Made by a program: the position numbers and the translations under genes. Below are positions 1 through 25,245 of a stretch of 64,000 bases of DNA, one piece after another (positions within the stretch are counted from its first letter, which is position 1; each line of letters starts with the position of its first letter). The DNA is from Byssochlamys sp. IMV 00236 (Eukaryota; Ascomycota; Eurotiomycetes; Eurotiales; Thermoascaceae): contig MSJH02000810.1 of assembly GCA_001931875.2 (NCBI GenBank), positions 817,535 to 881,534 of the forward strand. The letters are read 5' to 3'. Below the pieces are notes generated by a model. That model worked only from the letters and a program-made list of their open reading frames with translations, was not told the DNA's origin and did not search any database.

Positions 1-265
1 CGTCAGCTTCACCAGCTTGTATCCCAAAGAACTGAGCATCGAATGCCCGAGGATCCTCTGATAATAGATAAGCATCAGTCACGTTGCTAGCACCGTGATA
101 ATGGCCATCATGATGGTAGAAGCCTTGGGCGTTGAACCGGTCGATTTTTCGCGACACGTCTCGGGGGTCTCGGAGAAGCTCCCATAGCTTTGATGGAGAG
201 CTTGCATCTCCTGGAAGTCGGCAGCCGCTCCCGATGATGGCAATAGGCTCACGCGGAGGAGTCAT
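1..265 (-). CDS. Type I polyketide synthase (HR-PKS or PKS-NRPS), N-terminal part only
   Basis: An open frame starts at an ATG at 265 and runs off the left edge. Its 88 or so residues match the beginning of a fungal ketosynthase domain: [14 protein letters not shown] near residue 6, then [28 protein letters not shown], and [20 protein letters not shown] at the edge. That block order is typical of highly reducing PKSs and PKS-NRPS hybrids, whose KS begins almost at residue 1. The active-site cysteine and all later domains lie outside the window. A stand-alone enoyl reductase lies 1.5 kb upstream on the same strand. Trans-ERs usually serve PKSs whose own ER is inactive, so a PKS-NRPS or LovB-like enzyme is the best guess. 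The family call is secure; the subclass is inferred. Confidence 0.88.
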
Positions 266-1777
266 TCTATGACAAAAGCAACCATATAATACAAGTCTCA
301 GCAAGCAGCGGTGTTCTTTGGGACATATGGACGAGATAAATCCTCAAACAGAACCAATGCGGGATAAAACGAATATTAGGGAAGATAAAGTATTCGTACA
401 TATGGGTCACTTTCTAGCTTTTGTGCTCATCAGAGTAAGACCCTTCCCGAGTGTATTTCGGGCCAATGCCTTCCTTTGTCTTTCGACTATGTACTAGCGA
501 ATCTAACTCTCCTAGGAAAGCAAGGCATGGCCGTTTAACTCTTGAATAGAAGCTCGGTGATTTTGCTAACCAGCGCTCATTCTATAAAGAAGACTACCTA
601 TGGACCTGCATGAGTCCCCAATTACTGGAACATCTATTCCAAAACTTACTACAGACTTACTGCTAAAAGGAACATGAGAAAAAAAAATAGTAATTGGTGT
701 GTTACTTGCATTAAGCGCTGTGGTGGCATTATTTTAGAATACGCACATGCAACGCATGTTCTTTGTTATGTTCTTTGTATGTGATCTGCAGTTGTGAGTA
801 TGCTAATGACAAAAAAGACGGTTCGTTATAAGATTATTATGGACCCATTCTCCGCTTCTTTGTTAAGGTTTGGCTAACCATTTCCCACTATCTATCTTGG
901 CAAATGACTACAGACAGGAAAGGAAGTGGTATAAGATGAGAATAGTGCGAGGTACGAAACAAAAACATCAGGCAGGAAATAAAGGCAGCCGGGATGGTAG
1001 TAAGGTGGGGTTATCTTGATGTGTCAATAAACACTCTATGAACATGTGTCCACATCTTGCGCGCCCTTCGGTTTAGATTACATTTCAGGGATCCCAATAT
1101 TTAGTAGGATCGACAAGGTGAATCCTAATTTACCAACCGATTTCCTTGGATTCATTCAACCTTACAGGTAGCCATTTTACCCTAGAGAGCTATATATACT
1201 ACTTTAAGCGCAAAATCAATGCAAAAGCCCCTGTCCCTGTCCTGGACCACGCAATGTAGAGGTCATTGCTTAATGGAAGAAAAAAGAAAAAAAAAAGGGA
1301 GAGAGGCGGGAGAATCGATCTTTGGAAATGTGTATCAGCCGACATGATAGACGTGGATACATGGTGCGCCTAAGTGCGTAACGGCCGTGTTGCATGATGA
1401 TCAGATTAGATTATCAGATAATCAGAATTCTACATTCGAGCCCTTGCCTAGCGGCCGGGCTTCTTCCCCACTAGGATATCATGCAGGTACACATTAAGCG
1501 AGCATGATGACGATACCCCAGTTAGAATGGGGGAAACTAAAAAGCTTCAGAATGCTTATCCTCGGAACTGCCACCGAGTTATGCCTAGTGTTGTCGATCC
1601 TGAAGCTGAAGCTGCCGTTGCACTGTCTATCATAGAAACATTATTGCACCATGAAAACTTGCCAAGCTAGATATATGTATTACCGCCGGTTGTAATGTCA
1701 ATCCTTAACGGGACACGTAAGCGAGACGGAGGAAGGGAAGACATTGTTCTTATGCACAAAAGATATCTAGAACTCCT
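266..1777. other. Intergenic, PKS promoter side
   Basis: This 1.5-kb AT-rich stretch lies between the PKS start and the 3' end of the enoyl reductase gene. It should hold the PKS promoter. I see no convincing coding region, RNA gene or repeat in it. Confidence 0.6.
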
Positions 1778-2854
1778 TCACCACTCCATTGGATACACCA
1801 GTTTAAAACCCCGCACCTCTTTCCGTCGAATAGACTCGATGCCCTCGAGGATGCCGGGAAGCCCGCCTGGACAGATCTTGACCGGATGGGATCGGATCCG
1901 ACCTGCTTCTATGAGCGGCTGTACTGTGGAAAAGAAGCCCTCGGCCCAAGCCCGAATCTCGCGGTCTCCATCCCGTCCGTAGGGAGCTGGCCACGAGCAG
2001 CCCCGGCCCGTCACGCTCGTGGCGAGGATCCAGTTGGGTTTGACAACTTTCCGCGTATTTTGCGACTCCAGGAAAGGATCTAGAGCCACATATCTGCCGC
2101 CGGCACGCCCAATGGCATCGTAGCAAAGCTTCATCGTGGACGGTTGTGTGATGCAGTCGACCGCGAAAGCCAGGGCGTTTCGCGTATAGGCTCGAATATC
2201 CTGAGCGCAGGTCGGTGAATGATAGTTGAATGCCTTTTCGGCGCCGTAAGATGTCACCAACTCGACGTGGTCAGGGGAGCAGGTGACGATTGGGCGGAGA
2301 TTACACCCTCGGAGGAGCTGGATGGCCATCGTTCCCGTTGCCGTGCTGCCACCGTTGATCAGCACATAGATGGGCCTGTCGGCAGGGTATTCAAGTGAAG
2401 CCGGCAGTTTAAGAGAATGGAAGAGTGCCAAGCCTGCAGAGGCCAGTGATGTTCCCAACCCTGCTGCATCAGTGAAAGGCATATCGGCCGGGATCTTGAC
2501 CACCAGCGATGCAGGACAGGAAGTATACTTGGCAAATGCTCCCCCACTGGGTCGCTGTCTATTCATACTGTCTGCACTACCACAGACGCGGTCACCAGGT
2601 TGAAGTGGCCTTGTCACCGCAGAGCCAACAGCGGCCACAGTGCCGGCAAAGTCAAACCCAAGAATAGCTCCAGGGTAGGCAAAACCATGAAGCATTTTCG
2701 TGTCCACTGGGTTGAGAGCCAATGCGGCAGTATGAATCAGCACTGCATCGGGCTCAAGATCAATAACAGGCACATCATCGGCGATTTTAAGGCTGCCAGC
2801 ACTATCAGCAGCGATGATTGCCGTCTGGGTGGAAGGAAAGGGAGAAGGAGCCAT
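1778..2854 (-). CDS. Trans-acting enoyl reductase (LovC/ApdC/TenC-type)
   Basis: Intronless zinc-independent MDR-family reductase of about 358 residues, close to the usual LovC-type length. The start was set at the ATG at 2854 (MAPSPFPSTQ...) rather than an in-frame upstream ATG that would add 12 residues, because family members begin like this. Visible motifs are HTAALALNPVDTKM and GAILGFDFAGTVAAVG (GroES-like part), and LINGGSTATGTMAIQLLR (nucleotide-binding loop). Members act in trans on highly reducing PKSs or PKS-NRPS hybrids that have a dead ER domain, reducing the alpha-beta double bond of the ACP-bound chain with NADPH. The tandem position behind a PKS on the same strand supports that role. 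A stand-alone quinone reductase is less likely. Confidence 0.85.
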   Translation of the reverse strand: MAPSPFPSTQTAIIAADSAGSLKIADDVPVIDLEPDAVLIHTAALALNPVDTKMLHGFAYPGAILGFDFAGTVAAVGSAVTRPLQPGDRVCGSADSMNRQRPSGGAFAKYTSCPASLVVKIPADMPFTDAAGLGTSLASAGLALFHSLKLPASLEYPADRPIYVLINGGSTATGTMAIQLLRGCNLRPIVTCSPDHVELVTSYGAEKAFNYHSPTCAQDIRAYTRNALAFAVDCITQPSTMKLCYDAIGRAGGRYVALDPFLESQNTRKVVKPNWILATSVTGRGCSWPAPYGRDGDREIRAWAEGFFSTVQPLIEAGRIRSHPVKICPGGLPGILEGIESIRRKEVRGFKLVYPMEW

Positions 2855-4638
2855 TGTATATAGAGAACAGTTGTGTCGGCTGACTTTCAATCAGTATGTA
2901 CGGGAGATACCATTCATATATTAGCAGACCTAGTAACTTTTATACAGCCATGGATATATTGCATGTTTTAAAACCCTAGCGAGTCAAGCCCCCTGACCCC
3001 ATGTGGCAGCTATCATACGCTTAATACATGGTGCTCCATTATTCCAACGAATAAAGATGTTCATAACGTCTCCTCCAAACGCTTAGCACATTAAATCAGC
3101 GAGAACTCAATGCTTTATTGATCGATGTGGCTCGTACGTTTTACCTATAGACCGTTACCAGTGGGCAAACCTTAAAGCTAGACCTGTGGACCCCATAGGC
3201 AAAGTCCAGGCGCCGAACTGTCAATTATTCGCACATCTATAGAGCTCGCACGAATTACTCCTTATGGTCGTGATCTACAATATGTAGCTATTCCCGTGCA
3301 GAATCCACAGCTGCAGATCTCTCGGGCAATACGGACGTAGGAAAAATCTTGCATTTGTAGCAATGCTGATCAGCCGACATCGGAAAAGGGAGAAAAGAAA
3401 TTGGTCACGCGGTAAATGGACTCATAATTGACAATATCGCATTTCCTACCTAGAACCTGGCATTTAGCAGCGATGGATGCTTAAGGTAAATGATGGTTTT
3501 GACATTAGGCATGATAGATACCGATTTCAAGGTTCAATTTCTATGCACAACCGCTGGGGCTCATCTTTTACGATCAGTCATGTACGCCCTTAAATACAGT
3601 AACTGTCAAATCCGAGCGACCAAGAGGATATTTCTCCTTTGCGTTATACAATCAATTAGCTTCTCGTCTATGCCTCCACTGGGAGGTGGTCCTTTTATAG
3701 TCCGGGAGTGGTGTAGAGAGTCTAATAGTAACCATAATTGCGTAATAACGACCTTAGGATCAGTATAATGTTGTCTACCAAGAACTTGAGGGTTCACAAA
3801 TCATTCCTCATAATGGTGACCATGCCGTGCTGAATGTTTCTCATTCTGAGAGAAATCTTGTCGTGCCCCAGCGGGAGCACAAAATTTCTTAACCAGAAAT
3901 TTTAAAGCTAACTATACGGAAGGATGTTATATAATAATACTTATAGTTCTTTTCTCTAGAACCTAATCCTACTTATCTACCGATACCAGGACGTGTGCAC
4001 AAACTCCCCTCTCAGATAGGTTATGTTATCAAGCTTCCTCAGCACTGTGAAACCTACAGGTCAAGTCCAAGTAACCATATTGTATTCTGTCGAGTTCTAG
4101 GATCTCGGAAGCAAAAGCAGAAGCTAAACATGTGCTTTAAATAATATACTGTTGATCTTGATTACCCATACCCCTTATTTAGGTTTTGTGTTGGGATCTA
4201 GGACCACGGAAGCAAAGACACTGGATAAGCATTTGATGCGGGAATAAAATCTTGATTGCTTAGAGAACTAGAGGGTACCGAAATCTATCAGCTATTTATA
4301 CCCACGACTCTGTCCTGACATCCCTGCTGCCTGGAGCTGCGCTGGAATACTGTCTTGAGCGTTCCATGGTTCCAGCGTGTCTGCTATGATCCTATCTTGA
4401 TCGATGTAGGTGGCTTCTCGTTGCAGCTGCTACCCAGTTTGTATAGGGTAGTAGCAGCGGTTTGCACCTCGCTTCCACAGAAGCCGTGAGCGCCGACATA
4501 TTGCAGCTCGACTTGGTACGCGTCAACATAGAGGACTAGAGGGGTCCGACGCCGAGCACATATAGCATAACATATATATCGGGACAAAGAGACATCGAAA
4601 CTATACTGTGTATCCAAACCAATCCTCGTCAACAAACC
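2855..4638. other. Intergenic
   Basis: This 1.8-kb AT-rich stretch separates the enoyl reductase from the sugar transporter. Short open frames here (for example near 3490-3770) have no recognisable family or splice context. I see no supported feature. Confidence 0.55.
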
Positions 4639-6972
4639 TTACGCCGCGCTGATAGCGTCGAACCTCTCAGCCTTTGCGATGATTGGTGGTGGCTTGGGGA
4701 TATACTGTCGGAAGATATGCCGTCTTATAAACCAAGGAAGCCACACGGTCAATTCGTAACGGATAAAATCCTTTGTCGGAACAGAGAATACCTCTGCGGT
4801 AATGGTTAATGAAAGGCGAATTGAATTGAAAGGAAGTCCACTTACGGTCTAACTCTTCCAGGGTTAATTGCTTGGTTTCTCTAACAAAGCAGAAGATCAT
4901 GAACCAAGCAATAAGGTTGAGACCAGCATAGAAGCCGACTAGAGTGAAGGTCAGTAAAGCACCTCGCGAGAGAGTCTGGCGTATCCACTTACAGGCACCG
5001 GTTGGAGTCATAACCGTTTTCATTCGAGGGAAGGTTAAACTAAGAATACCGGCTGCACCACAATTTGTCAGTGAATGCTGGTGGATATAAGATTTATAAA
5101 TACCCACCGAAAGTGTTGTTGATGCAAACCGCCCAGGCCATTCCCTGTTCTCTCTGGATAGTAGGGAACACCTCGGCAGAGTACTGGAAGGCAACTGGTC
5201 CCTCGCCCAACGAATAACAAATTGTGAAGAGATAGACGAATCTAGTGCACAAACGTAGTTAGCTCAGTTCAGAATTCCAGATATGCTAAGATAACTTACA
5301 GGACAACTGGTCCAATTTGTGAGCCACGGCTACCAGTTGTGTTCAGAAGAGATAGACCTCCAGCCAATAAGAAGATGCACATAAGTGGAAAAGTCTTGAT
5401 AAAAGAGACTATCAGTTATATCCATTCACACACATTCCAGAGGGACTCACACTCAAAGTTAAGGTTCTTCGGCCCTTAGTATCGATGAGGAACACAGTAG
5501 GGATAGTGGATACGACCTGAATAGCACCGTAGCCGAGAGAAGCGTACAGAGCCTGGGTCGCTGTGTAACCAACGTTTTCGAAGATAGTTGAGCTATAAAA
5601 AGAGATGACTGCAGTATGTTAGAAGTGACAAGTGACAAGAACTCAGAGGTAACCTACTGTTGATACCACACATCTGCTGGGCAATCATAACTGTAGAGGC
5701 ACCATAGTTTGCTCTCCTGATCCGAGGTACAGTGAAACAATCCCACAGACGGGAGAAGTAGCCCGCACCACGAGCTTCCCTAACTTCTTCCTCGTAGATA
5801 ACGAACGAGTAGTAAAAGTCTCTTGCGGCGATTATGGGATGAGCCCGCAAGCGTAACATAGATTGGAACCCTTGGGCATGCTTTCCATGCTTCATGAGCC
5901 AACGAGGGGATTCGGGACAGAAGAAGATACCAACGCCCAGAATGAAGGATGGGATAAATGCTGAACCCAGTTGGAGACGCCAAGAAATGCGACCAGTATC
6001 TTTGACAATGACATTGGCACAGAAGCCCAAGAAGATACCTGTCCGCGACGATTATTAACGGCCCAGGACAAGTGATAAGAGGAGGCTTACCAACTACCAC
6101 CCAAAGCTGCCAGAACATGACGAGAGCACCTCGAATTCTAGCCGGGGCCATTTCAGACGAGTATATGGGGACTGTGGCATTTTTGGCACCGATACCGATA
6201 CCCATAATGAAGCGCGCCGCGAACAGCCCTTGCCATGATTTTGCGAAACCGGAACCAATTGGGGTTGCAGTAAGACAGCAAGCCGTGAGAAAGATCTCAC
6301 CTCTTCGGCCTAAGTAGTGATTGAGCGGATCGACGATGAAAGCGCCACTGTTGCCGAAGTCAGTTACAGATGTCAACCGAGCATAGCAGCACACTTACAT
6401 GAGACCGGCAGTTAAGAAGATAATGGCATTGATGAGCCCCACAATCCATTCATCTCTTCCTTTACCGTTTATACCAAATTCTTCGGGGAACGACAAGTTG
6501 GCTCCGTTCGAACCAGTCTGGTCCCATCCTTGCGTGGCAGCCCCAATAGCACACAGACCAATTGAGTACCACAGCATGAACGGACCGTGCCATTTGTGGT
6601 CCCTCTCGTAGGCGAGCGCACTGCGCTCTCGTTCATCAAGCTCGGCGACCATCTCGAATCTTTCCGGGTCTCGCGCGACGAGAGCAGCCCGACCAAAAAG
6701 GTCGGCGTGCTCAGGCATGCCATGTGACTGAGCGTAGGCCCGAGCATCTGCTACAGCCTGTTCCGTGGAGACTCGCTACGGTGAAAAGGTTCGACGTCAA
6801 CAGATACTTGCCGTGCGTGAGGGATTGGCTCTGCAAAGCTCACCTTCAAGGGGTTCTCAACGATGTTAACAGCGATTGAGTCGCGCCGAGATGGCGGATC
6901 AACCTTGGTTGCCGGAAGCACATCTTCATTGTGCGAGGCGTCGATAATGTCTGCGGCTGCTTTTTCAGTCAT
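4639..6972 (-). CDS. MFS sugar transporter (sugar porter family)
   Basis: Multi-exon gene with at least nine introns. The start is the ATG at 6972; no in-frame ATG lies upstream. Exon 1 is 6844-6972, intron 1 (6776-6843) restores the frame, and exon 2 is 6399-6775. The remaining exons run to the stop at 4639 (C-terminus ...[10 protein letters not shown]). Sugar-porter signatures include [11 protein letters not shown] after the second membrane segment, [39 protein letters not shown] after the sixth segment, IAQQMCGIN in the seventh, TKGRRTLTL, and [12 protein letters not shown] after the last segment. The long N-terminal part before the first membrane segment ([12 protein letters not shown]...[10 protein letters not shown]) is typical of a fungal subgroup of inositol/polyol-like transporters. 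The substrate cannot be read from sequence. A role with the adjacent PKS is possible but unsupported. Confidence 0.86.
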
Positions 6973-10997: not shown

Positions 10998-12891
10998 ATG
11001 GCGAGATACCAACTAGTAAGTATCATTTTAAGGACTCTCGCTTCATTAGGATATCTCCTATTCTGATAGCCCGGGCTATTCGAGACATTATGCTAATGTG
11101 ATAAAGAGTTTAATTATACCGGCTCTTGTGGCTATTCTGGCTGTTGTATCATCTTTGAGTCCTTCTCCCAAATGCAAATGCTTTCCCGGAGACTCTTGTT
11201 GGCCGACACCGCATCAATGGAACTCTCTGAATAGGACTGTTGGCGGCCGTCTTATCGCAACAGTTCCCCTTGGCCAACCTTGCCACGACCCCTTTTACGA
11301 TGCTGAAGTGTGCAGCTCACTCCAGAGCCAATGGCAAGAAGCTCCAATCCAGTATGTGCATTTCATTCTACAAATTGGATTGAAGAAGATTCACGTTTCA
11401 CACCTAAACGGTGCCTCCTTCTTCTAAACTATATTTGGAAACTCATATTAATACAGTATGGAGTCCTCGTCCTCCGTCATGGCACCATTCTTTGCCAACC
11501 AGAGCTGTGATCCTTTTACCAAGGAATCAAAACCATGTCTACCGGGTAACTATGTGCGATATGCGGTAAACGCAACGTCCGTGGAGGACATTATCGCAAC
11601 CGTAACTTTCGCAAAGAGCAAGAATATTCGCTTTGTTATTCGAAATACCGGCCATGACTATCTCGGTCGCTCGACCGGTGCAGGGTCCCTTGCAATTTGG
11701 ACACACTATCTCAAGAATATAAGTTTCCTAGATTGGGATGACCCTTACTATAAGGGAAGGTCTGTGAAGGTTGGTGCCGGTGTTCAAGGCTATGAGGCCA
11801 TGGCTGCCACCAAAGCTCAAGGACTGGTCCTCGTCGGAGGTGAATGCCCAACTGTTGGTATAGCTGGCGGATATGCTCAGGGTGGTGGACACTCCATTCT
11901 TAGCACGAAATTCGGCTTAGCTGCCGACAACACACTTTCCTTTGATGTCGTTACTGCGGACGGAAAGTTCGTTACTGCTTCTCGAACTCAGAACCAGGAT
12001 CTCTACTGGGCACTCAGCGGCGGCGGCCCCGGGAACTATGGTGTTGTTGTCGCTGTCACCTTCAAAGCTCACCCAGACACTCACTTTGGAGGTGCTTCTC
12101 TAACATTCTATGCCGACTCAAATCCTACCGATATCTTCTATCAAGGCATTTATGCCTTCCACGAAAAGCTCCCTGCCATCATTGATGCAGGCGCCATGGC
12201 TGTTTATTTCTTCGATAGTACATTCTTCAGCATTGCGTCCCTCAGCCTCTACAATGGGACACAAGAGGAGGTCAAGTCCCTTCTTGCTCCATTTGTCGTA
12301 CAGCTCAGCAGCCTGGGTATCAAGTATAACGTGACATATGGAGAATCGACCACGTACTGGGACCACTATAACAAATACTTTGGGCCCTTGCCTTACGGAA
12401 ACATCCAAGTCGGTATCGCACAATACGGTGGTCGTTTAATTCCCCGATCTGTCGTCGCAAACATTTCATCGACCTACCGCAGCATAGCTGAACAAGGCGT
12501 CACTTTTATCGGCGTGGGTGTTGACGTCTCTGCGTTTGGAAAGTCGCAAGAGAACTCTGTCCTGCCCGCGTGGCGCAACGCCATCGTACATGCTACCCTC
12601 TCTACCCCTTGGAATTTCACCGCTCCTTGGTCAGAGATGATTGCCAGACAGGACCTTATGACTCACAAAATCATGCCGGAGATCGAGGCAGCTACACCTA
12701 ATAGCGGGGCGTATATGAACGAGGCCGATTTCAGGCAGCCAAATTTTCAGCAGGTCTTCTTCGGCTCAAATTATGAGAAGCTAAAGAAAATCAAGCAAAG
12801 ATGGGACAAGGATGGCTTTTTCTATGCAACTAAATCTGTCGGTAGTGAGGCTTGGACTATCTTGAAAGACGGAAGAATGTGTGCCACTTGA
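10998..12891 (+). CDS. Secreted bicovalent-FAD oxidase (BBE-like, PCMH fold)
   Basis: Berberine-bridge-type flavoprotein, about 565 residues. Proposed exons are 10998-11015, 11107-11351 and 11457-12891. The short first exon (MARYQL) gives an ATG and a good signal peptide when joined at 11107; the frame around 11098 has no ATG of its own, so the 5' end is the least certain part. The body shows KCFPGDSCWP, NQSCDPFT, RNTGHDYLGRSTGAG (His for the 8-alpha-histidyl FAD bond), GGECPTVGIAGGYAQGGGHS (Cys for the 6-S-cysteinyl bond) and LYWALSGGGPGNYGVV. The C-terminal BBE domain has YMNEADFRQPNFQQVFFGSN and ends near DGRMC. Such enzymes oxidise alcohols, amines or C-C/C-N positions in secondary metabolism. 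It opens the putative ribosomal-peptide cluster; the substrate is unknown. Confidence 0.9.
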
Positions 12892-13184
12892 AAGTATATA
12901 AGTTGAAGTCTGTCGTATAATGTAGATAATGGGAGGATCCTAGACTGATTATAACTTCCAATGCTATCCGTAATACAAATAGGAAATTTCAAAAGCCCAT
13001 TGAGGAGACTCGACTGCAAGCTGGTGGGCAGAACAAGCAGGCAACAAACATAGTGCTCGAATATGTTGCCAGGGTTGAAAGTAAGATTAAGTTTTAACCA
13101 ACAAGCTAGACTTTATTTCGGAATGGGAAACCTGTTACGTCTTTCTATTCAATCAATTGTAGCTCATATCAGAAGGTATCATTA

Positions 13185-14277
13185 TTATACTGATGCCACA
13201 CTCCCTGTGATCCGCTTAAACTCATTCTCCGTGTGCTTGTTGATCTCTTCCAAGTCTCCGCTTTCTCTCAGCTTATGCAGATACGTTTCAAGATGCAGCT
13301 CATAAGTTTCGCCATCCCAATCCACCGAGTAGACGCCACTGCTAGTCTGTCCATTTGATCCTATAGCCGGAGTTAAACCGATCGCCAAAGGAACTCCACA
13401 AGCTGCATCATTAATGCCACCTTTCTCATGGTTCTGAATGCTAGGACGATACATCGCACTCGTGGCTAAAAACAAATGCCGTTCACCGCTCTCTTCTAGT
13501 GGAATAGACGAGAATGAACCAATCAATGAGGACGCGGCTCTCATCACCAGCGGCATATCTCGCATTTTCGTCTTCACCGTTCCTGGGTTTGCATGAATAA
13601 AACTGACTTCTGGTGCCTTCCGGGCTAGTGCCTCGAGTGACAAGGTCACCATAGTCGCGATATGGGCTCGTTTGGATAGCACAGAGAGATGTCGCGCTTG
13701 GATGTCGTCTGCATGAAAGTGTCCCTCCTTATGAGCCGAGAAGACACTCACGACTCGGCGAAGACCAGGGGCATGCCGAATAAGCGGGAGAAAATTGAGT
13801 ATGAATCGCACTCGGGAATAATGTACAAGTGCCATGGTCATTGGGAGACCTTCTGAAGTCTCTGTTGATTTCTAGCTTAGCCATTCCAATTCCCATGTCT
13901 GTGTAGCGCTTTGGTCAGGGCCTACCATGAGCTGCCCCTAAGTTTCCAGCACTTAGGAACAACAGATTCACGACAGTTTCCTTCTCCTCAATCTTCCGAC
14001 AGATGTTGTCTACTGCGGAAAGCAGACTCACATCGGCAAGAAGCAAGATGTATTGTCCTCTATGATTCAGCTTCTTGCATTCCTCAACAACACGGTTTCC
14101 AGATTTTTGCGAACGTCCGATAATGTATATGCGAGGTTCGCGCACATGTCTTGCAAACTGTTTAGCTGTTGCTGCACCAATCCCATCGGTCCCTCCAACG
14201 AAAACGGCGACAAGACCAGCAGGGAGAGCAGTCGAGATTTGCGCGTTCGAAGACTGGATGACAGTTAAATCAATCAT
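13185..14277 (-). CDS. Short-chain dehydrogenase/reductase
   Basis: Two exons, 13926-14277 and 13185-13861, joined over a GTAGGC...CAACAG intron, give about 342 residues. The N-terminal Rossmann fold shows VFVGGTDGIGAATAKQFAR (a TGxxxGIG-type NAD(P) loop), then YIIGRSQKSGNRVVEECKKL, and LLFLSAGN (the NNAG-like strand-4 motif). Across the splice the sequence reads AAHETSEGLPMTMALVHYSRVRFI, containing the YSRVRF segment with an active-site tyrosine candidate, and later HANPGTVKTKM. This divergent SDR type is common in fungal biosynthetic clusters. It shares its strand with the methyltransferase gene 250 bp upstream and probably belongs to the same cluster. Reaction and substrate are not predictable beyond NAD(P)-dependent carbonyl/alcohol chemistry. 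Confidence 0.85.
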
Positions 14278-14529
14278 GTTCCTATTCGCAATTATTTCGC
14301 CGTCTGTCTTGATTGTTTATTGTTGTTTCCGGAGTAATTCAAGGAGTATTAAGGCCAGTATTTCTGTTGAACCTGCTTCTGGCTGTCTCGTGTATGATGA
14401 CGTTGCGTGATAATCTGAACGAGAATGTCCCACCTGTTATCGGATGATTTGATTGGTTGATTGTGTTGCATACAAAAAGCCACCTACGCACGGACAAGTT
14501 GAGATACGATTTTCTCCCTTACATGGAAC

Positions 14530-15813
14530 TTATATAGCATTTCTTCTCGCAACAACCACAACTCCTCTCACAATATTGCTCCGTCCCCACCAACTAAACA
14601 GTTTTCCTGCAACTTGTAGCTTTCCAAGGCTCAATTTAAACTGCCTCAACTCAGCTTCTCTCCGCTCCATATATCCTCCGATCCCGGAAAACACATATTC
14701 AGAGATATCGTGTATTTCGATATTATCAGACGCATAACCAGCCCTGACTAACATATCGCGGTAATCGGACAAAGTCTTGAAGTTTGAGAAGGGGATGGAC
14801 GACATAAAGCATACAGCACGTAGCAGAATATTGTCAACGGGATGTACCGAATCAGCGAGAATGAGATCAAACGCCATAAAAGAAGCGCGGAGCTCGCGAG
14901 CAGCATAGGATAAAAGGGGATCACGGGAAGGCTTGAAGTGATAAAGAGTGTCCAAGGCAAGCAGCCACGTGTGAGCAGTCTGAGACTGCTTATCGCCGAA
15001 TCCTTGCTGAGATGTCGCGGTTACGGCATCCTTGAGTTCGCGGCTCCACGACGTCGGATCTGCTGCGTCTGCACAGAATATATGGATACTGTCGCTTCTA
15101 CCGGTATCTTTGATCCGTTGACGAGCAAACTCGGCCTGGTGTTGATTCACATTTATGCCGACATAGGCGTCAAACAGCGGCCGACGCTCCGATCCAGGAG
15201 CATGATCATCGATCCGGGCCAGCCATTTCATCAAATAGATAGTCTGGTCACCACAACCACAGCCAACATCAATAATCCTTAGGGCCGAAGAGTCTCTGAC
15301 GCTTAGCGGTCTTCGATTGCTATCAAGAAGTCCAGCTGTCCGTAGCACTTTTTCCAGAAGAGCGGTGCACGCTTCAGGAAATGATTGAGTATGCTACATA
15401 AAATAAGTTATATCATGTATAAGGATAGTATACCTGGGCATTGAACCTACTTTCCAATATCCCATATTCATCCACATGCTTGGCGGAGGCATCTCAATAT
15501 TGAGAAGAGCATGGTCTAGACCATAAAGCTTGTCTTCGCCGCTATCCGCAAAACAGCAACGAAAGAGGCTACTGGTGGCATTTTTGATGAATGGAATAAA
15601 TAGGAGGCCACAGATCCAGCCGTAGAGAAAGCTGTGGTCATTCAGAAGAGAACAATAATCCTTAGACCATATGCCTTGACGGTCAGTAATCCCAGACAGC
15701 CACAACGTGCTAATAACGGCAGATAAAGCTATCGCCGCAGATATAGGCCAAACGACATGGGAAACCAGACCACACATCCTTACTTCATACAAAATTGGAA
15801 ACGAATGTAACAA
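14530..15813 (-). CDS. SAM-dependent methyltransferase with N-terminal membrane anchor
   Basis: Two exons, 15451-15813 and 14530-15393, joined over GTAGGT...ATGTAG, give about 408 residues; an in-frame ATG at 15777 would give 396. One or two hydrophobic segments near residues 18-40 and 65-80 suggest a membrane anchor. They are followed by LDHALLNIEMPPPSMWMNMGYWKHTQSF, a lead-in found in small-molecule N- or C-methyltransferases. Motif I is clear: LRIIDVGCGCGDQTIYLMKW, then YVGINVNQHQAEFARQR and IHIFCADAADPTSW. WLLALDTLYHFKPSRDPLL follows. It lies between the SDR and the repeat precursor. Backbone or side-chain methylation of the peptide is a plausible role, by loose analogy to the methyltransferases of dikaritin clusters, but homology to those was not tested. 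Confidence 0.85.
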
Positions 15814-17329
15814 ATTCCACTTCTGGTTCGGTTCTTCGACCCGAGTTCACGCCAGATGACTAATTCAGCGCTAATCTGTAACTAGTTAACCAGATCTGAT
15901 ACCTAGCAACTATCGCAAATTGGCCAGACAATTGTAGATCTTTCCAAGTAACACGCAATCGACCAGGTATTTGTATCGTGGTCCTCGTCGCCTTTGTGCT
16001 GCATTTCAGCAGTCTCATTGGTCGCTAGTATCTAGTAAAACATCTTCAATATACAGATGAAATGAGCTCTAGGTAAGAGACTAATTCGGCAGCATCCATG
16101 GTGACTTCATGTTAACAACGTGCGCTTACCTACTCGGAGCTACCGCAGTCCAAACATCGAGGTTCGTATGTTGCCTCCAGTAATTATCGCATACAAAGGA
16201 AATAGCAAGACCTCGGCTACATCTTCTCTTTACGCTCACCGGGCTTCATTGTGTTGTGTCTTTGCCGCAAACAGTCATGCACTTATCGGCTTACAAGAGT
16301 ATTTGTGGACTTATGTCGTGCTATGACAGCCCGTACTGTATCATAAGGACTGCGGGGTAGAAACATACTAATTTCATCAATTGGATTCCTCGTAAGGTCT
16401 TTCAACTTCTAGTGTCAAGTAGCCGCATATCTACAACATTCAATTCTCACTCTGTCTCCATCCATTCTTTGTTAATAGGTTGTCGGTCCCCTAAACAGTT
16501 ATCAAGACTGCCAGCTGGGGATTATTAGGACTAGCCACTTTGTATTCAATACAGGATGATCATGGAATCGACTGTCGATACCATCCGTTGTCGTAGACCT
16601 ATTCCGGCCATCTTGTAGTGTAGATCTACTGTTATGAACGGAGGCCAACATTGAACCCCAAGCTGGGCTGGTCGGAAATCTTTCCTGGTTCAGCCTCCTC
16701 GCTGCCTCACCGCAACAAGGTCCGCTGAATGAACAATGCTTGTCCTTCTCCATCTGTTACCAGTATTAGATGCTGCACCACAGATCAGCAATCATATCAG
16801 GCTAAGTCAAGTTATATAACCTTGCCGCTTCATTTAACTTGCATACTTCGCCCCCAGCTTGCTGCCGCGCTACATTAGGTGGATAAAGAATGTCGGTGCT
16901 CATTTCAATTTGCATATCAGGCTATCAAGCATGATAGGAGCTTGGTGCCCGAGGATAGACAAAGAAGGGCGCTTAATGTAACGTTGGAGATCTACTTTCT
17001 TTATATAGCGCGGTAGCCATGCATTCACATGTTGCACTTGCTTACAGCTTCTTGCGAATCGTTGGGTTTAGCATCTATAATCTCTATGGTTATATCATAG
17101 GTGCTTTGTATGCTATAACCCACAGTGACACCAACTGGGAAAATGGAAAAGGCGATCGTCTTCCCTACCCAAGACATAGGACTACCATTGAATTCTGTTC
17201 CTCCCTTGGACGCGGTTATAAATGTCTTCGAGCTCAGGCATAGATCTCTATATCGTTTCTAGTCTCCAACCAAACAGCTTCTGATCATATCAAGACCTCT
17301 AAGACAGATTCGCTTTACAAGTGCCAAAA
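15814..17329. promoter_or_regulatory. Divergent intergenic region between methyltransferase and precursor
   Basis: This 1.5-kb stretch should contain the promoters of the leftward methyltransferase gene and the rightward precursor gene. A TATAAA box lies at 17217-17222, 108 bp before the precursor ATG. I looked for a small UstYa-like (DUF3328) gene here and found no matching motif; short open frames such as that at 16502-16753 on the minus strand show nothing recognisable. Confidence 0.5.
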
Positions 17330-18037
17330 ATGGAGCTTCTATGTCTCCGAAACCCTCTTGTTCTTATTGGAGCGCTTGCCCTCCTATGTCTCTGCGCCAA
17401 CGCCGCCCCTTTGGACCTTGATACCAGAGATACTGGAGACGACCTTGCCTGGTGTACGCCGTACTGCATCCCTGGCCAGAAACAGGAAGATGTCCAAGCT
17501 ACCAGTTTAGCCACTAGAGATTCTGGAGACGATCTTGCCTGGTGTACACCATACTGTATCCCGGGGCAGAAGAAGGAGGATGTGCAGACTAGCAGTTTGG
17601 CCACTAGAGATACCGGAGACGATCTCGCCTGGTGCACACCTTACTGCATCCCGGGACAGAAGAAGGAGGATGTCCAAGCTACCAGTTTGACCGCTAGAGA
17701 TTCTGGAGACGATCTTGCCTGGTGTACACCATACTGTATCCCGGGGCAGAAAAAAGAGGATGTGCAGACCAGCAGTTTGGCCACTAGAGATACCGGAGAT
17801 GATCTCGCGTGGTGCACGCCTTACTGCATTCCGGGAGAGAAAAAGGAGGATGTGCATCAATCGAGTGCTAGAGATAGCGGTGATGATCTTGCTTGGTGCA
17901 CTCCTTACTGCATTCCGGGAGAGAAAAAGGAGGATGTCAAGAAAAGGCAGCCTCAGGGCCTCGCTGCTAGAGATACTGGAGATGACCTGGCTTGGTGCAC
18001 ACCATACTGCATCCCGGATCAGAAACGGGAAGCCTGA
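17330..18037 (+). CDS. Secreted multi-core peptide precursor, candidate fungal RiPP precursor
   Basis: Intronless, 235 residues from the ATG at 17330. Residues 1-25 are a signal peptide (MELLCLRN... then a Leu/Ala-rich core ending ANA). The rest is seven tandem units, starting at residues 34, 64, 94, 124, 154, 182 and 215, with 30-residue spacing for the first four. Every unit contains the invariant GDDLAWCTPYCIP, preceded by R-D-T/S and followed by G/D-Q/E-K-K/Q/R-E. The last unit ends QKREA, a Kex2/Ste13-like dipeptide arrangement, and unit 6 is followed by KKR. This is the architecture of Kex2-processed repeat proteins and of ustiloxin-type precursors. Each core has one Trp, one Tyr, two Cys and two Pro, suited to disulfide or side-chain cross-linking. 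Neighbouring redox enzymes and a methyltransferase support a RiPP cluster. An alpha-pheromone is the main alternative. Confidence 0.82.
   Translation: MELLCLRNPLVLIGALALLCLCANAAPLDLDTRDTGDDLAWCTPYCIPGQKQEDVQATSLATRDSGDDLAWCTPYCIPGQKKEDVQTSSLATRDTGDDLAWCTPYCIPGQKKEDVQATSLTARDSGDDLAWCTPYCIPGQKKEDVQTSSLATRDTGDDLAWCTPYCIPGEKKEDVHQSSARDSGDDLAWCTPYCIPGEKKEDVKKRQPQGLAARDTGDDLAWCTPYCIPDQKREA
17429..18034 (+). repeat. Seven tandem coding repeats (90-bp unit, 180-bp higher order)
   Basis: Units lie at 17429-17518, 17519-17608, 17609-17698, 17699-17788, 17789-17872, 17873-17971 and 17972-18034. Units 2 and 4 differ at only three silent positions over 90 bp, and units 1 and 3 both carry the ATSL spacer while 2 and 4 carry TSSL, pointing to duplication of a two-unit 180-bp block. 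Units 5 to 7 are more diverged and have variable spacers. Confidence 0.95.
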
Positions 18038-18483
18038 ACCAAAGAAAAGATAACCATGGAAGCCAGGAAAAGTCTCAACGTGCGAGAGACTTTAACTCGC
18101 ATTCGAAAACACCGGAAGCTTCCATGGTATTCTAGGTAACCAGGAGAAGAGCATCACTCACTTTCTGGATGACTACAGTGATATGTTATGACCGTTTAAG
18201 GATTTTACACCTGCGGACTCCGGTCATTGAGGTTCTTAACGTTGAACGCACATTAATCAAAAAGTCCTACATTGCCGATTACATGCCGCGTTCAGGAGAG
18301 GCATTGAGAATACGTCCACTCGTTTAGCAGTCACCCTTATCAGGTCTTATAGTTTGGATCAGAATGACATCGTCTGAAATGTCTATATTTTCCTCGTCCT
18401 TGTTCAAGAGATTTTAGTTTCAGTTCTGACTTGTAATACATTACTGGGTGAGAAGGCACTCGTTAGATCGTAAGGCTCCGCTT
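18038..18483. other. Convergent intergenic region
   Basis: This 446-bp stretch lies between the convergent precursor and HRQ-protein genes and should hold both 3' ends. I see no other feature. Confidence 0.5.
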
Positions 18484-19944
18484 TTAAAACGGGTACTGTG
18501 CTTCCTCAGTAATCTCAATGATTCCCCTTTTCTGCTGAAGTTGGTGTTGCTCATCGAGATACGGAAGTAGGATATGTTCCCATTTCTCTTTCCCTTTATA
18601 GGCAGATACCACGTCATCCCATGCGCGAATCGCCTCGGCGAGACGACCAGGAACGTGAGGCTCTTGAGCGATTGTTGTAATCGGCTCAAAATACGTCCTC
18701 ACAGTAAATAGTAAAGCTTTCGACCTTGGCAGTCGTCTCAGTGTCTGACGCTCTGATCGGAAGTGCAGTTCTTCGACAGTCAGGTCAGAGCTATCAGATG
18801 TGGCCCATGCTGACTCCTATTAGTTTTCGTCATGTTAATCTATTAATTCATGTTCTTTGGACTTACAGGCAATTTCATCACCGTCCTGGTTTCCCATTCG
18901 ATGTGACCAGTGAAGTCCATCGTCGAGCTTGATAAAATACTACAATTTTGTCAGTCCCATTATGATTGAGAGCCCAAGATCCATGCTTACATTGTTCCGC
19001 GTCACTGGCTTCTCCGGGGTAAGGTTTTTGAAGAACCGATTCATAGCTTTCTGAAGCTTCTGTTCATAATGTGGAACTCCCGCTTCAAGGTGCAGCGTGT
19101 CGAGAGACATTCGAAACTTCTCCTTAAGACGCCAGAAGCCGGGTAAGCAAACAGCCCCTGCATCTAGATGATACCGTCCATCTTCGCTACGTTAGCTCTG
19201 CCGAGATAACAGCATTATAATTGGCTTACCGTCATTCTCCACCATCAAAACAATATCATCCTGTATCAGCTTCGCAGCAGTCACTAAGGCATCGGTAGGG
19301 GTCGCTGATAGATATCAGCTACACGATAAACCCCGCGTTTATTGCACTTATACACCTACCAGCCGGCCACGAAAACTTTTCTCCAGTCAATACATTATGA
19401 AGAATTTTTTCTTTTAGTTGGAATATGGACGGATAACGATGACAAAGGTACTGAGTGAGCTCCTCAAGGACCTCGAAGCATGCGTCTCGAGTTACCGCGT
19501 TATCAACGTACTTGATATGGGCGTCCAAGTCGTTTTCTAACTCCGATACCTTTGTATCGTGGTACCATTTGAAATATGAGTCCATTTCAATCCACTCGTT
19601 CCAATCCATTTTCCGAATCCCCATGGTAATGAAGTTCGGGCCATGGCGGAACGGCCGGTAGACTTGCGGTGTCTTCGATTCCACGTTGAAATCATTGAGC
19701 GCTACCGGCAACGGCGTCTTGAATTGTCCTTGTGCAGGTAGTTTCTCCTGATTTGTCCTTCCTATGGAACATTCAGCAGTAGAAACCTCACGGAGATGGA
19801 TACACGGAACATACCAATATTGGATACCTTCTGGGATATCTTCACCCAAATGCAGAATACAAGAGGCCCAAGAAGTATCAGTGTCAAGCATGTTTTGGCC
19901 GATAAGTTGGACAAGGGCTCAAGGTGGAAAAATCTGTGAGGCAT
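18484..19944 (-). CDS. DUF3445/HRQ-family haem-type oxygenase, membrane-anchored
   Basis: Six exons by eye (19815-19944, 19360-19761, 19230-19304, 18991-19181, 18867-18939, 18484-18809) give about 398 residues. An N-terminal hydrophobic segment ([16 protein letters not shown], residues about 20-35) anchors it. DUF3445 landmarks follow in order: [113 protein letters not shown] and [20 protein letters not shown]. The bacterial prototype is a haem-dependent oxidative N-demethylase. Fungal HRQ proteins are mostly uncharacterised. Its position tail-to-tail with the precursor suggests oxidative tailoring of the peptide, which is inference. Two chosen acceptors (before 19181 and 18809) are less canonical; neighbouring alternatives give stops. 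Confidence 0.85.
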
Positions 19945-20057
19945 GACTATTACTTAGCTGCCTCGAAGAATTTCTGAAGTTCTGTCGCTGCTGTCAAACT
20001 CGCGTCCAGGTGAATGTGGCTAGAAATATGTGTGGAAATCCATCTCTCCTATCTTCA

Positions 20058-20303
20058 TCAATTGGGCTTATCGGGTAAGATATAGAGCAACCCTGCGCCA
20101 TCCCGCAGCAACAACGTAGTTTCGGATTCGATTGCCAGAAACGTCCAGTAGGTGTAGTTATACTGGTTCAGGATACTTTGCCTAGGCGCTTCGAGGCGGC
20201 AGATGGAGAGATTGTGCATGGCACAAATCGGCAAAAGGCAAGAGTCGTCCTTAATCAATGACAGAGTGGCGAGAGCGCCTACAGGGTCAGGTACACTAGT
20301 CAT
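20058..20303 (-). CDS. Small open frame of unknown function
   Basis: An 81-residue ATG-started frame lies 100 bp upstream of the HRQ gene on the same strand. It begins MTSVPDPVGALATL and ends ILPDKPN. I recognise no domain, signal peptide or membrane segment. It could be a small cluster gene, an exon of something larger, or chance. Confidence 0.25.
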   Translation of the reverse strand: MTSVPDPVGALATLSLIKDDSCLLPICAMHNLSICRLEAPRQSILNQYNYTYWTFLAIESETTLLLRDGAGLLYILPDKPN

Positions 20304-21015
20304 ACTGGTCAATAATTATGGATGGTGTTCTTATTCTCTTTGGTTTCCTTCACTAGTCCTTACTGTATCAGGCATCTAGATAGGCCATCCCCACAGCTGC
20401 TACCGACAACGGCAGAGATATTCCGTTTCCTAACATGAGTATTGTCTCTCGGGACTACTCGCTGTTTCGAGCATATATTGACATATAAGGCATTCTATTA
20501 AGAAGAGGGACAAAAACAATATTAGAGTAAAATCGAAACTAGAAAAACAGGTCAGAAAAACTGCGATGAAGCAAAAGGAGACGAGATAATTTCCCGGGAC
20601 TAGGTATCCACCCCCGCATTATGTACTTATTTCACTTTGCGATAGGGTTTCCCCCAGGTCATGATACTTGACATCGACAATTTCAGGTAGACACCATTCT
20701 CCGAGCAATGTATATTTTGACACAGCATGCAAATTCGCATTAGCAGGGTCTCAATGAGTGTGACGCAGAGGGCAAATTTCCTTACAGGAACCGTTAGTGG
20801 TTGTATGTAAGTACCTGAAGCTCCGAGGTTGCCGAGGAGCGATGATCAATAATCTCATCGGCTAAACACCAACAACTGGTAACTAACTCACCTCTACTTA
20901 GCTAACCCCGCGACTTTGCAACACGTCTAGTTTCCAGATTCTACCATTGCGAAAATCCCGACGATCCATCAGCTTTTTTATCATTCTAAACGGAAACTAG
21001 AACGCAGACACCAAC
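20304..21015. other. Intergenic, promoter of the FMN oxidase
   Basis: This 0.7-kb stretch lies upstream of the hydroxy-acid oxidase gene. I see no coding signal in it. Confidence 0.5.
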
Positions 21016-22587
21016 ATGTCGGAAAACTATGGAGCTTTCCAGACGGAAATTTACGGTAAGGGATTTTTAATGAACGTCAAGCCGACGGTGACGACCGACC
21101 CCCGTCTCTTGGAAGAACACGCGAAAAAAGCCTTGGGGTCGCGATCATTTAACTATGTCGCTGGAGGAGCCGGAGAGAAAGCGACTATGGACAGCAATCG
21201 CTTGGCCTTTCGCCAATGGAAACTGTAGGTTCTGCATTATTTTCCTCGTGTATATTGCTTCTGTCGAAAGCCCTTCCTCGGTGTCCGCGTGGAAGGATAT
21301 ATGTGTCTCTTGCAAATATCAGTTTCTGATGTGTAAGGAAAACTCGTACTGAATTTTTCGAATAGGATCCCAAGGATGATGAAGCCGGTATGTGTATAAT
21401 GGATACTTTTCAAGGCAATGAACGTTCAGGATAATACTGATAACAACATTCGACATCGTATAGATGGACGGCCAGGATATTTCCGTCGAATTATTTGGCC
21501 AAAAGTATCCCACGCCGCTACTCATGGCCCCAGTCGGGGTTCAATCGCTCTTCCACGAGGACAAGGAAACTGGTGTCGCAGAAATCTGTGGCGAGTTGGA
21601 TGTCCCGTATATCTTGAGTACTGCTAGTAGTTCCTCAATTGAGGAAGTGGCTGCCGCAAACGGCGCCGGGAAGAGGTGGTATCAGCTATATTGGCCATTA
21701 GATGATGCAGTGACAGTTTCTCTGCTCAAAAGGGCCAAAGAAAATGGTTACAGTGTCCTCGTCGTAACATTAGATACATGGTCTCTCGCTTGGTAGGGTC
21801 TTTGGATGTTCATTATCATATTCTTCGTTTCAATCCAATACTAACGAGAAGCCTGCAGGCGTCCAGCGGATCTTGATAATGCCTACATCCCTTTCATTAG
21901 AGGGGTAGGAAATCAGATAGGGTTTAGTGACCCTGTCTTCCGTGCCAAATTCAAGGCAGAGTCTGGGTGCGAAGTAGAGGAGGATGTCCAAGGCGCTTCA
22001 AGGGCGTGGATCTCAGATGTGTTCTCTGGGAAGCCTCATACCTGGGATCAGATCTCCTTTCTGCGGAAGAACTGGGATGGCCCGATCGTACTCAAGGGAA
22101 TCCAGCATGTGCATGACGCCAAACTGGCCCTCGAAGCAGGTTGCGATGGTATAATTGTTTCTAACCACGGAGGTATGTCTACTCTTTCCACCAGCACAGG
22201 ATCCGTGACTGTCGTTCCGTCTTAGCTTACTCTCCAATCTCTCCAATAGGTCGCCAAGTCGATGGGGCAATTGGTTCTCTTGAAGTTTTACCAGAAATCG
22301 TAGATGCTGTTGGAGACAAAATGACTGTCCTCTTTGATTCGGGCATCAGAACCGGTGTTGATGTGATCAAAGCCCTTTCACTTGGGGCAAAAGCAGTGCT
22401 CGTGAGCCGACCCGTCATCTACGGACTGGCAATTGACGGCAAGAATGGAGCGAGGTCCGTCTTACAAGGACTGTTGGCGGACCTTTATCAGAGTATGGGG
22501 CTTTCCGGAATCAGAACTGTCGCGGAGTGCACAAGGGATGTGATGAGGAGGGTGCAATATGGGGGTGATATGAAAGCAATGATGTGA
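21016..22587 (+). CDS. FMN-dependent 2-hydroxy-acid oxidase/monooxygenase
   Basis: Five exons (21016-21224, 21366-21387, 21464-21792, 21859-22172, 22250-22587) join in frame to 403 residues. It is a TIM-barrel FMN enzyme of the lactate 2-monooxygenase/glycolate oxidase family. Signatures are YVAGGAGEKATMDSN, PTPLLMAPVGVQSLFH, KRWYQLYWPLDD (active-site tyrosine), VVTLDTW (aspartate), [35 protein letters not shown] (catalytic His and substrate-carboxylate Arg) and TVLFDSGIRTGVDVIKALSLGAKAV. All catalytic residues appear present. The family oxidises 2-hydroxy acids to 2-keto acids, sometimes with decarboxylation. As the last accessory gene before conserved TRM44 it may be the right border of the peptide cluster. 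A general metabolic role is also possible. Confidence 0.9.
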
Positions 22588-22804: not shown

Positions 22805-24727
22805 TCATTCAGATTCCGATTTACCCTTATGGCCCCCTTTCCCTTGACCCTTGTTTAGTCCCTTAGCCCTATCTATCCATATCCTTGCAGCTTCTTCGAC
22901 GCCTCCTTCCCGCATGCATTCCCGTTGAACAATCATCTTGATTTTTTCAGTAACAGATGAAGCGACCTCATCGTCACATCGTCCCTCTTCGTCGTCTTGC
23001 TTATGTGACTTGTCCCAGCGTTGCTGCACCTGCTGTCGACCTCCAATTATTCCCATATTTCGTGTACTCGGTATCCGAAGTAATGTCTTCTCGACTTCGT
23101 AACCAACTTCTTCCGCGACGCTCATTGTCTTCGCCGTAAGTGAACCATACATTGACTTCAGCATTCCAGCATCAGTTTTTTCTTCCATTTTGGCAGCTCG
23201 TAAGGCTTTCAGGTCGCCACTCGCAGGCTGTGGGTTCTGTTCCACTTCTTCGTCAACAGTGTGTCCGTTCCTTTTTCCAGTTTTCGGGGGTGGGTATCGA
23301 TGGCGTGCTCCTGATAGAGAATGGGAGCAGCATGGTATGGCGAGAAAAGGCAGCGGAGATTCAGGCTGAGACAGGGCCGCCATAAGTGGTGTCCAGACAG
23401 TCAGTTCGTCAGCATGGTTCGAGATTATGAAGGTGTCTTTCGGGAAAATCCCAGTGTGAGCTGATACACCTATGTCTAGCATGTTGCTCTCTCCGCGGGC
23501 CACTATAGCGTCTCCAAATGGCTTGGGGACGTATATTGACTCCTTGAGACACTCCTGTACGGATTGAGGGAATATGCTCCAGGTTTTACGCCGGCGAGCA
23601 TCAAACCCCCATCCCTTATAACCCTCCATAAGCAAAACATATACCAAAACCCCGTTACCACAAGCGACGTCGACGAACCCAGGGAAATCACTCTTGGATT
23701 CCCCACTGCTTTTGCCATCCTTCTCGGCTTCGGGTGCTACCCCGTACATAGAACGCCATAGCTCTATGAGAAACGCTGTAATCGCTAAATCCTCGAAGAC
23801 ATGTTTCGAAGGTTCCGTCTCCTCAACCCAATTTTCACAGAGATGAGAGCCATATTTGATCTTTAGTCGGGAGTAGGTGTTCTGTATCCGGTGTTGCGGT
23901 AGAACATTGTCCTTCGAAGGATTATAATTTCCACCTTCAGTGGTATCAGAAGAACGTGTTATTCGAGCCAGTCGGATCTGGGTTGCCAGCAGAGCCTGAA
24001 GTGTACGTTCGAGGCGAGTCGGGATTGGTTCTTCAGAATCGTAAAATGGCAAGAAATGTATAGACAATGACCCGGAATGTGCAGATTGATGTGATGTTGT
24101 TACTGTAGAATCACTTTTGAAGTCGTAAAGGAAAGCTAATGAACGGAGTAGCGGATGATACCAGGGGAGATCATCCTTCGAGGAGACATGAGGAGTATAT
24201 ACGAAAAGCAACCGGTCGATTTTCGTGTCATCATGTGTTTCGTCTCCATCCGTCTCTCCATTCAAAACACTTCTAGCAGATCCAGAATAAAAATGGCACG
24301 TCTGCTCTAGGGCACGGTCCAGCTGGGGATTTCTAGGTATGAACCTTCTCACAACGGTCCTTGTTAACTCGAAACCTGATACTTCCGCTGGAGGGAGCGG
24401 TTTGACGTCCTCTATGTCCGTATCTGCATCTTGGTTCTGCGCAAATGATAGTTCTCTTTCCTTAGGTGTCTTCAGCCTACCCTCGCTGTCGAACAAGATG
24501 TCGGCTCGGAAAAGATGGCTGGAGTTTTTGTTCGGGTTTCCCAATAAAAAACTGGTCAGGTTGTACATGACCTGTGGAACAAACGGCAGCCCTTCTCTTA
24601 TCAGGTCTGGAGACGTGACCCATCCTTCTTCTCTGAATTTCAACGGTGAAGGTGTAAGGGTCTCAGAGAGAGGTTTGCCTGTTAATGACGAGGGGTCTGG
24701 AGCAACTTTTCGCCTGGAACGCGCCAT
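22805..24727 (-). CDS. TRM44: tRNA (uracil-O2-)-methyltransferase Trm44
   Basis: Single-exon frame of 640 residues. The AdoMet-dependent core is seen at [40 protein letters not shown] (about residues 350-390), the Trm44 family signature with a D-x-A-C-G-N-G SAM loop. [17 protein letters not shown] and [13 protein letters not shown] follow, then a long, charged C-terminal part. Trm44 makes 2'-O-methyluridine at position 44 of serine tRNAs in the cytoplasm. It is a conserved housekeeping gene and marks the border between the accessory left third of the window and the core block. Its stop codon lies about 220 bp from the convergent FMN oxidase gene. Confidence 0.9.
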
Positions 24728-25245
24728 CTTGTGGCGATAGAAATACCCTTAGAGATGTTCCTCAAAGGGAAAGCAGAATGTTTAGGAAATGACCGAAAGG
24801 GTATAAGAGAGCTTCTGATCATGGACTATTGGATTCTCACAGGTGCAAAGCTCTGAGGGTTAACGCCGCGGCGGATGTACTCCACCAATTTATTTTTGAT
24901 GTTTTCGATGCGCGGGCAATGCATGTCCGCACTGTACACTCTTTCTTATGACTGCGCGCCTGGAGGGGCTGTCGGCATTATTTCACCCTGTTCCATATCA
25001 TTTAACAAACCCTAATGCTTTTAACAATCGGCACATAAATAGATAACATACTGTGAGTGATCAAGCGTCGCAATCTCTGAAACCTTCCAAAAAGGCAGGC
25101 GGTCTGTCATGGCAGTTTCTCGGAGTTTCCCGCAAATAAATAGAGTACCCAGCTCTCATTATGAAGTCCTCGCTATTTGAACTTGGTCGACTGCCAACAC
25201 CAATTGATACCACGCAAGCAAGTTAATACACATGTTATAAAAAGA
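24728..25245. promoter_or_regulatory. Divergent promoter region
   Basis: This 518-bp stretch lies between the divergent TRM44 and small mitochondrial-type gene starts. No specific motif was recognised. Confidence 0.5.

Follow-up and report, generated by a model that had tools for sequence, protein, structure and literature searches.

A 64,000-nucleotide stretch of the Byssochlamys sp. IMV 00236 genome (the window, contig MSJH02000810.1, here C807:817535-881534) carries at 17330..18037 (+) an intronless gene for a 235-amino-acid, apparently secreted precursor in which the core GDDLAWCTPYCIP, recognizable by its WCTPYC motif, occurs seven times. The codons for the Trp of this motif lie at 17450, 17540, 17630, 17720, 17810, 17894 and 17993, and the protein opens with MELLCLRNPLVLIGALALLCLCANA followed directly by AP, a hydrophobic stretch that by eye resembles an endoplasmic reticulum signal. 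Introns and gene content mark the window as fungal. The original prediction, made from the DNA letters, had placed this gene at the center of a new class of fungal ribosomal peptide cluster. Its seven-core reading frame is confirmed, since a degenerate DNA pattern for WCTPYC finds 7 places in the 47.4-Mb, 840-contig genome, all of them within this gene, and the same pattern written backwards finds 0. The precursor matches only itself when compared with the whole genome at E<=10, with no paralogue or second cluster, and an exact search for the core pattern in viral and prokaryotic contig collections found nothing. The word WCTPYC was not found in the PMC literature (supplementary tables of such precursors lay outside that search), and searches with PYGLP-type, PYCIP and YCIPGQ words gave nothing on fungal peptides, as judged by title. 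We conclude that the peptide gene is real and out of the ordinary, and that the locus is not yet evidence for a new natural-product class.

The repeat is a selected peptide rather than a DNA artefact. Tandem Repeats Finder (TRF) places an array of 5.8 units of 90 bp inside the reading frame at 17426..17938 (+) and lists it twice, with a score of 585 for a period of 90 and 709 for a period of 180. When differences are summed over copy pairs (and hence are not independent events), the seven 13-codon copies of GDDLAWCTPYCIP show 123 synonymous and 0 non-synonymous differences, as against 21 synonymous and 18 non-synonymous differences in the 13-codon spacer stretches that follow the first four copies. 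The peptide is therefore under purifying selection. Each core contains a single Trp, a single Tyr and a pair of Cys, all strongly constrained, and the Cys spacing is CX3C. Constraint also takes in the residues GDDLA, and the mature peptide therefore probably begins upstream of the Trp.

Potential Kex2 sites are present on the C-terminal side of most copies and not on the N-terminal side. A dibasic site follows six of the seven cores (KK five times and KR once), copy 1 having KQ instead. On the N-terminal side all seven cores have a lone Arg followed by Asp (R-D), with identical codons in every copy, and no dibasic site. Dibasic sites thus bound five segments of 25-28 residues with one core each, while copies 1 and 2 lie together in a 55-residue segment. 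ED comes after every one of the five internal KK sites, QP (an XP dipeptide) after the internal KKR, and EA after the C-terminal KR. If the protein enters the secretory pathway as its N-terminus suggests, Kex2 would be expected to cleave behind the KK and KR that follow these six cores and Kex1 to remove the basic residues that remain; a further cut behind the conserved lone Arg would probably free a peptide of about 17 residues, D[TS]GDDLAWCTPYCIP[GD][QE], carrying one CX3C disulfide loop. Judging from these sites, the most likely products would be such ~17-residue peptides, or peptides of 25-28 residues if the Arg is left uncut. For the unmodified disulfide forms the computed [M+H]+ values are 1852.752 (DTGDDLAWCTPYCIPGQ), 1838.736 (DSGDDLAWCTPYCIPGQ), 1165.481 for a trimmed WCTPYCIPGQ, and 3040.330 for EDVQTSSLATRDTGDDLAWCTPYCIPGQ, the form given by dibasic cuts alone.

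In the survey by Umemura 2020 (PMC7329392), a Kex2-processed repeat protein (KEP) is defined by an endoplasmic reticulum signal and by at least three repeats of at least 8 amino acids between KR, KK, RK or RR, none longer than 100 amino acids. The precursor has both the signal-like start (read by eye) and the dibasic-bounded repeats, so that the multi-core KEP of the original prediction is borne out. The absence of UstYa (DUF3328) from the interval, also predicted, is likewise supported: a UstYa profile gave 12 matches on seven contigs of the genome and none anywhere on C807 (1.03 Mb). We also considered a UstYa protein in disguise near the precursor and rejected it on this genome-wide search and on a scan of 104 kb for HxxHC, in which none of the 8 places that matched resembled UstYa when read by eye. 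What does not follow is that the absence marks a new class. The same survey reports that for 6,120 of 7,878 KEPs (78%) the 15 nearest genes include none of the DUF3328 type; a KEP that lacks UstYa is therefore the usual case. It also reports that most KEP types are limited to one genus. The alpha-pheromones, which are the best-known KEPs without UstYa, are unmodified (Le Marquer 2019, PMC6339444).

As a positive control for the recognition of KEP genes we read 29 kb on three of the seven contigs with UstYa matches, and on the other four only within ~1.5 kb of the match. On C802 (locus L037, ~2160-2390, -) there is a frame with three EYAYIAVDSD-like cores split by KRRAED, a dikaritin-type precursor with two UstYa matches nearby, at distances of ~1.5 and ~3.6 kb; no KEP-type precursor was found in the other two control stretches. 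An ordinary KEP linked to UstYa is thus present in this genome, and the WCTPYC gene belongs to another type. Our KEP screen picks up only repeats within one open frame, and it first caught the C802 precursor through an adjacent frame; the true frame, identified by eye, was caught only at a looser setting, and the screen is therefore not very sensitive.

The precursor gene stands in the midst of a run of five enzyme genes. We built the five models by hand from the genomic sequence, all are free of internal stops, and their domains as read by Pfam agree with the set of enzymes that had been predicted. The first, at 10998..12891 (+; 565 amino acids, 3 exons), is a BBE-type FAD oxidase with FAD_binding_4 and BBE domains and an N-terminus that by eye is hydrophobic and signal-like. 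Its nearest structure is MtVAO615 (6f72; E 1.2e-139). In the alignment, NTGHDYLG and GGECPTVG of the oxidase fall opposite NTGHDYLG and GGTCPTVG of that enzyme, which places a His and a Cys in what we take to be the bicovalent FAD pattern, as the original prediction had it. A reductase of the short-chain dehydrogenase/reductase (SDR) type follows at 13185..14277 (-; 342 amino acids, 2 exons; Pfam adh_short). The YxxxK motif occurs nowhere in this protein, so its catalysis is uncertain. The S-adenosylmethionine (SAM) methyltransferase at 14530..15777 (-; 396 amino acids, 2 exons) has Pfam matches below cut-off and, by eye, two hydrophobic N-terminal stretches of membrane type; it has no match in the PDB at E<=0.01 and no further match in the rest of the genome at E<=1e-3. 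Between it and the precursor gene, which points the other way, lie 1.55 kb (15778..17329) that are upstream of both. On the far side of the precursor, at 18484..19891 (-), is a protein of PF11927, a family formerly named DUF3445 and now HODM, for haem-dependent oxidative N-demethylase. We modelled it with five exons (all four introns are GT-AG; the start is uncertain), and its residues 136-375 align with 5lte, a demethylase of this kind, at E 4.5e-18. Last comes an FMN-dependent hydroxy-acid oxidase at 21016..22587 (+; Pfam FMN_dh), closest to lactate oxidase and lactate 2-monooxygenase, with 5 exons and 403 amino acids in the model used; two placements of its final intron are equally open. 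By eye, the models of the HODM (with its uncertain start), the SDR and the FMN oxidase have no signal-like N-terminus, and two HODM paralogues elsewhere in the genome have hydrophobic N-terminal starts.

Extending the neighbourhood ~13-14 kb past the left edge of the window brings in a second biosynthetic system. A polyketide synthase-nonribosomal peptide synthetase (PKS-NRPS) begins with its ketosynthase at 1..343 (-) and runs ~11.8 kb past that edge (C807 ~805.7-817.8 kb). The gene is ~12 kb long, its Pfam domains read KS-AT-DH-MT-KR-ACP-C-A-T with a terminal reductase-type domain, and it has the ketosynthase active site DTACSSS and the reductase motif YVASK. Next to it, at 1781..2890 (-), is a protein of the zinc-type alcohol dehydrogenase family (ADH_N and ADH_zinc_N), presumably LovC-like, which we interpret as the enoyl reductase that serves the PKS-NRPS in trans. 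Pieces of a sugar-type major facilitator superfamily (MFS) transporter follow in several frames at 4670..6394 (-; Pfam Sugar_tr), with a start perhaps at ~7077 by eye. To the left of the window, at -13331 to -12507, there is C6-type regulator-like sequence, recognized by eye and without a Pfam match. The neighbourhood is flanked on the left by ANAPC4 and an importin-like protein, and on the right by a housekeeping PF07757 methyltransferase gene (22805-24748), which we take to be TRM44-like; no P450 is among the Pfam-scanned open reading frames (ORFs) between these flanks. About 10.7 kb separate the start of the PKS from that of the FAD oxidase, occupied by the enoyl reductase, the transporter pieces and a gap of ~3.9 kb that has no ORF longer than 96 amino acids. 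Within this gap, at ~9580-9680, lies a dispersed element of ~75-100 bp with at least 40 further matches in the genome (the best 40 of 59 candidates were scored); as DNA it folds into a hairpin with a z of -4.55, and it has no Rfam match.

The original prediction had the five enzymes acting on the precursor. This claim is not supported. Directly to the left, a PKS-NRPS with its trans-acting enoyl reductase, transporter pieces and regulator-like sequence gives these enzymes another plausible client; they could be tailoring genes of that cluster. The reading we favour, at about an even chance, is that the precursor is an ordinary KEP that would free disulfide-looped peptides, encoded within or abutting the PKS-NRPS cluster. 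The linear looped peptide would be secreted and act outside the cell, as a signal, in defence or in an effector-like manner, and the five flanking enzymes would most likely act on the PKS-NRPS product and not on the peptide. In its favour are the signal-like N-terminus and dibasic sites, a core invariant in protein but not in DNA, the large share of KEPs that lack UstYa, and the PKS-NRPS that abuts on the left. Several features of the locus weigh against this reading. The enzyme run surrounds the precursor, which shares its 1.55-kb upstream region with the methyltransferase; the ~3.9-kb gap precedes the run, and the five enzymes could therefore be a cluster of their own; and the FAD oxidase, with its signal-like start, could encounter the precursor during secretion. 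There is no positive link between the five enzymes and the PKS-NRPS, the exact-word promoter test (below) is negative for both clients, and the screen of paralogous loci for KEP genes has the single-frame limit described above.

A possible though doubtful alternative is that the locus is a UstYa-independent cluster for a ribosomally synthesized and post-translationally modified peptide (RiPP), in which the secreted FAD oxidase acts first, the methyltransferase, SDR, HODM and FMN oxidase then modify the WCTPYC core, and the PKS-NRPS is an unrelated neighbour; the chemistry may, for example, be a crosslinking or oxidation of Trp, Tyr or Cys that leads to a cyclic peptide of a novel type. The narrower proposal, that the secreted bicovalent FAD oxidase, the HODM and the membrane methyltransferase modify a CX3C core freed seven-fold without UstYa, is a tentative one that we hold with slightly less confidence still. 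Such a pathway would explain the position of the precursor inside the run, and it is consistent with the signal-like start and His/Cys pattern of the FAD oxidase, with a methyltransferase unmatched elsewhere in the genome, and with the strong constraint on Trp, Tyr and both Cys of each core. It has to contend with the other client next door and with cell topology, since a secreted precursor would be reachable for the HODM (start uncertain), SDR and FMN oxidase only by a later cytosolic step. The lack of a KEP in the stretches read at the other HODM loci and near the closest FAD-oxidase paralogue, and the lack of a common exact promoter word (both below), also weigh against it. Literature searches on DUF3445 and the oxidative N-demethylase, judged by title or abstract, gave nothing tying it to fungal RiPPs.

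We looked for coupling between the enzymes and the precursor in two ways. Exact words of 8 to 12 bp were counted in 8 upstream regions and in 20 simple shuffles. There were 87 8-mers in at least three of the eight regions against 80.75 in shuffles, and 5 against 4.5 in at least four regions; for presence in at least three regions, 9-mers numbered 3 against 7.1 and 10-mers 0 against 0.45. Common exact words are therefore no more frequent than in shuffles, a negative outcome for both client readings alike, and co-regulation through such a word was rejected. No gapped palindrome with 4-bp half-sites was present in at least four regions of a ten-region set, some of them overlapping. The other approach was to ask what accompanies the paralogues of the enzymes. 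Stretches of 8 kb read at each of the other four HODM genes showed no KEP; the closest of these paralogues (51.6% identical) is on C631, where the stretch is one-sided because the gene is at the start of the contig; the loosest setting of the screen caught one long non-KEP frame, in L032. The idea that a HODM gene marks KEP clusters was thus rejected. Other matches to the FAD oxidase lie on C814, C783, C824 and C790, and the closest of these (53% identical; L040 3949-5136, -, C814 341.3-343.1 kb) likewise showed no KEP in the 15 kb read around it. A HODM gene lies ~13.6 kb from this paralogue on C814; the locus was rejected as a sister cluster because helicase-like ORFs (by eye) intervene and the HODM is only 24% identical to that of the window. 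A P450-like ORF, also recognized by eye, lies near the C814 oxidase.

The precursor might instead encode a second alpha-pheromone-like signal, secreted in multiple copies, starting with Trp-Cys and perhaps read by a G protein-coupled receptor (GPCR), but we consider this unlikely. Ascomycete alpha-pheromones have the consensus W-C-...-G-Q-x-C, and the overall architecture of their precursors is that found here, with WC and PGQ elements in the core; an XP dipeptide, QP, comes after one internal site (KKR). The Cys pair is however CX3C and not the long loop of the consensus, and ED, instead of XA or XP, stands after each of the five internal KK sites. A genome-wide search with the consensus gave matches at L016 and L017 (the backwards control also gave 1 match), and the L017 match is an ORF (1336-1647, -) with one copy of WCRRPGQPC and a signal-like N-terminus that is perhaps the alpha-pheromone gene; the genome has one STE2 receptor gene, on C837 (L036). 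Given the missing loop, the ED after KK and this ORF elsewhere, the WCTPYC gene is not filed as a pheromone gene. For the role of main alpha-pheromone gene it was rejected, as neither the core consensus nor a repeated STE13 signature is present and the more canonical candidate exists at L017. A loose resemblance nevertheless links PYCIPG of the core to PYG[LM]P[IV]G of Pleosporales pheromones (Le Marquer 2019, PMC6339444).

It is very improbable that the precursor is itself a part of the PKS-NRPS cluster, with a peptide that is, for example, conjugated with the product or protects against it. One stretch, from ANAPC4 to the PF07757 gene, does hold the PKS-NRPS, the enoyl reductase, the transporter, possible tailoring genes and the precursor, but position is the sole evidence, and we know of no precedent for a precursor peptide conjugated with, or protecting against, a PKS-NRPS product.

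Should the peptide prove to be a substrate of the enzymes, the locus would add a fungal RiPP class that escapes mining keyed to UstYa, with chemistry of the haem-demethylase and FAD types on a two-Cys core. Otherwise, a KEP in or beside a polyketide-peptide cluster clearly shows how the look-alike of a RiPP pathway arises, and what is left is a secreted peptide, strongly conserved, that lends itself to a direct test of function.

Among known systems, clusters built on a PKS-NRPS with a trans-acting enoyl reductase are of a familiar kind. The genes adjoining here (PKS-NRPS, enoyl reductase, transporter, oxidoreductases and methyltransferase) resemble them, whereas the KEP, the HODM gene and the lack of a P450 among the scanned ORFs set the locus apart. 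With the dikaritins (ustiloxin, phomopsin and asperipin types) the gene shares a multi-core KEP amid possible tailoring genes and a Tyr in the core. It differs from them in having no UstYa match on its contig and in its core, which is GDDLAWCTPYCIP and not EDYxI, the type given for ustiloxin and phomopsin in PMC6339444. Its Cys spacing, its lack of a repeated STE13 signature and the more canonical ORF at L017 distinguish it from the alpha-pheromone precursors of ascomycetes, which it resembles in its signal-like start, its repeats, and the WC and two Cys of its core. Compared with KEPs at large (Le Marquer 2019, PMC6339444; Umemura 2020, PMC7329392), it has lost one dibasic site (the KQ of copy 1) and its N-terminal cut would be monobasic, but it has, as they do, a signal-like start and at least three repeats of at least 8 amino acids between dibasic sites.

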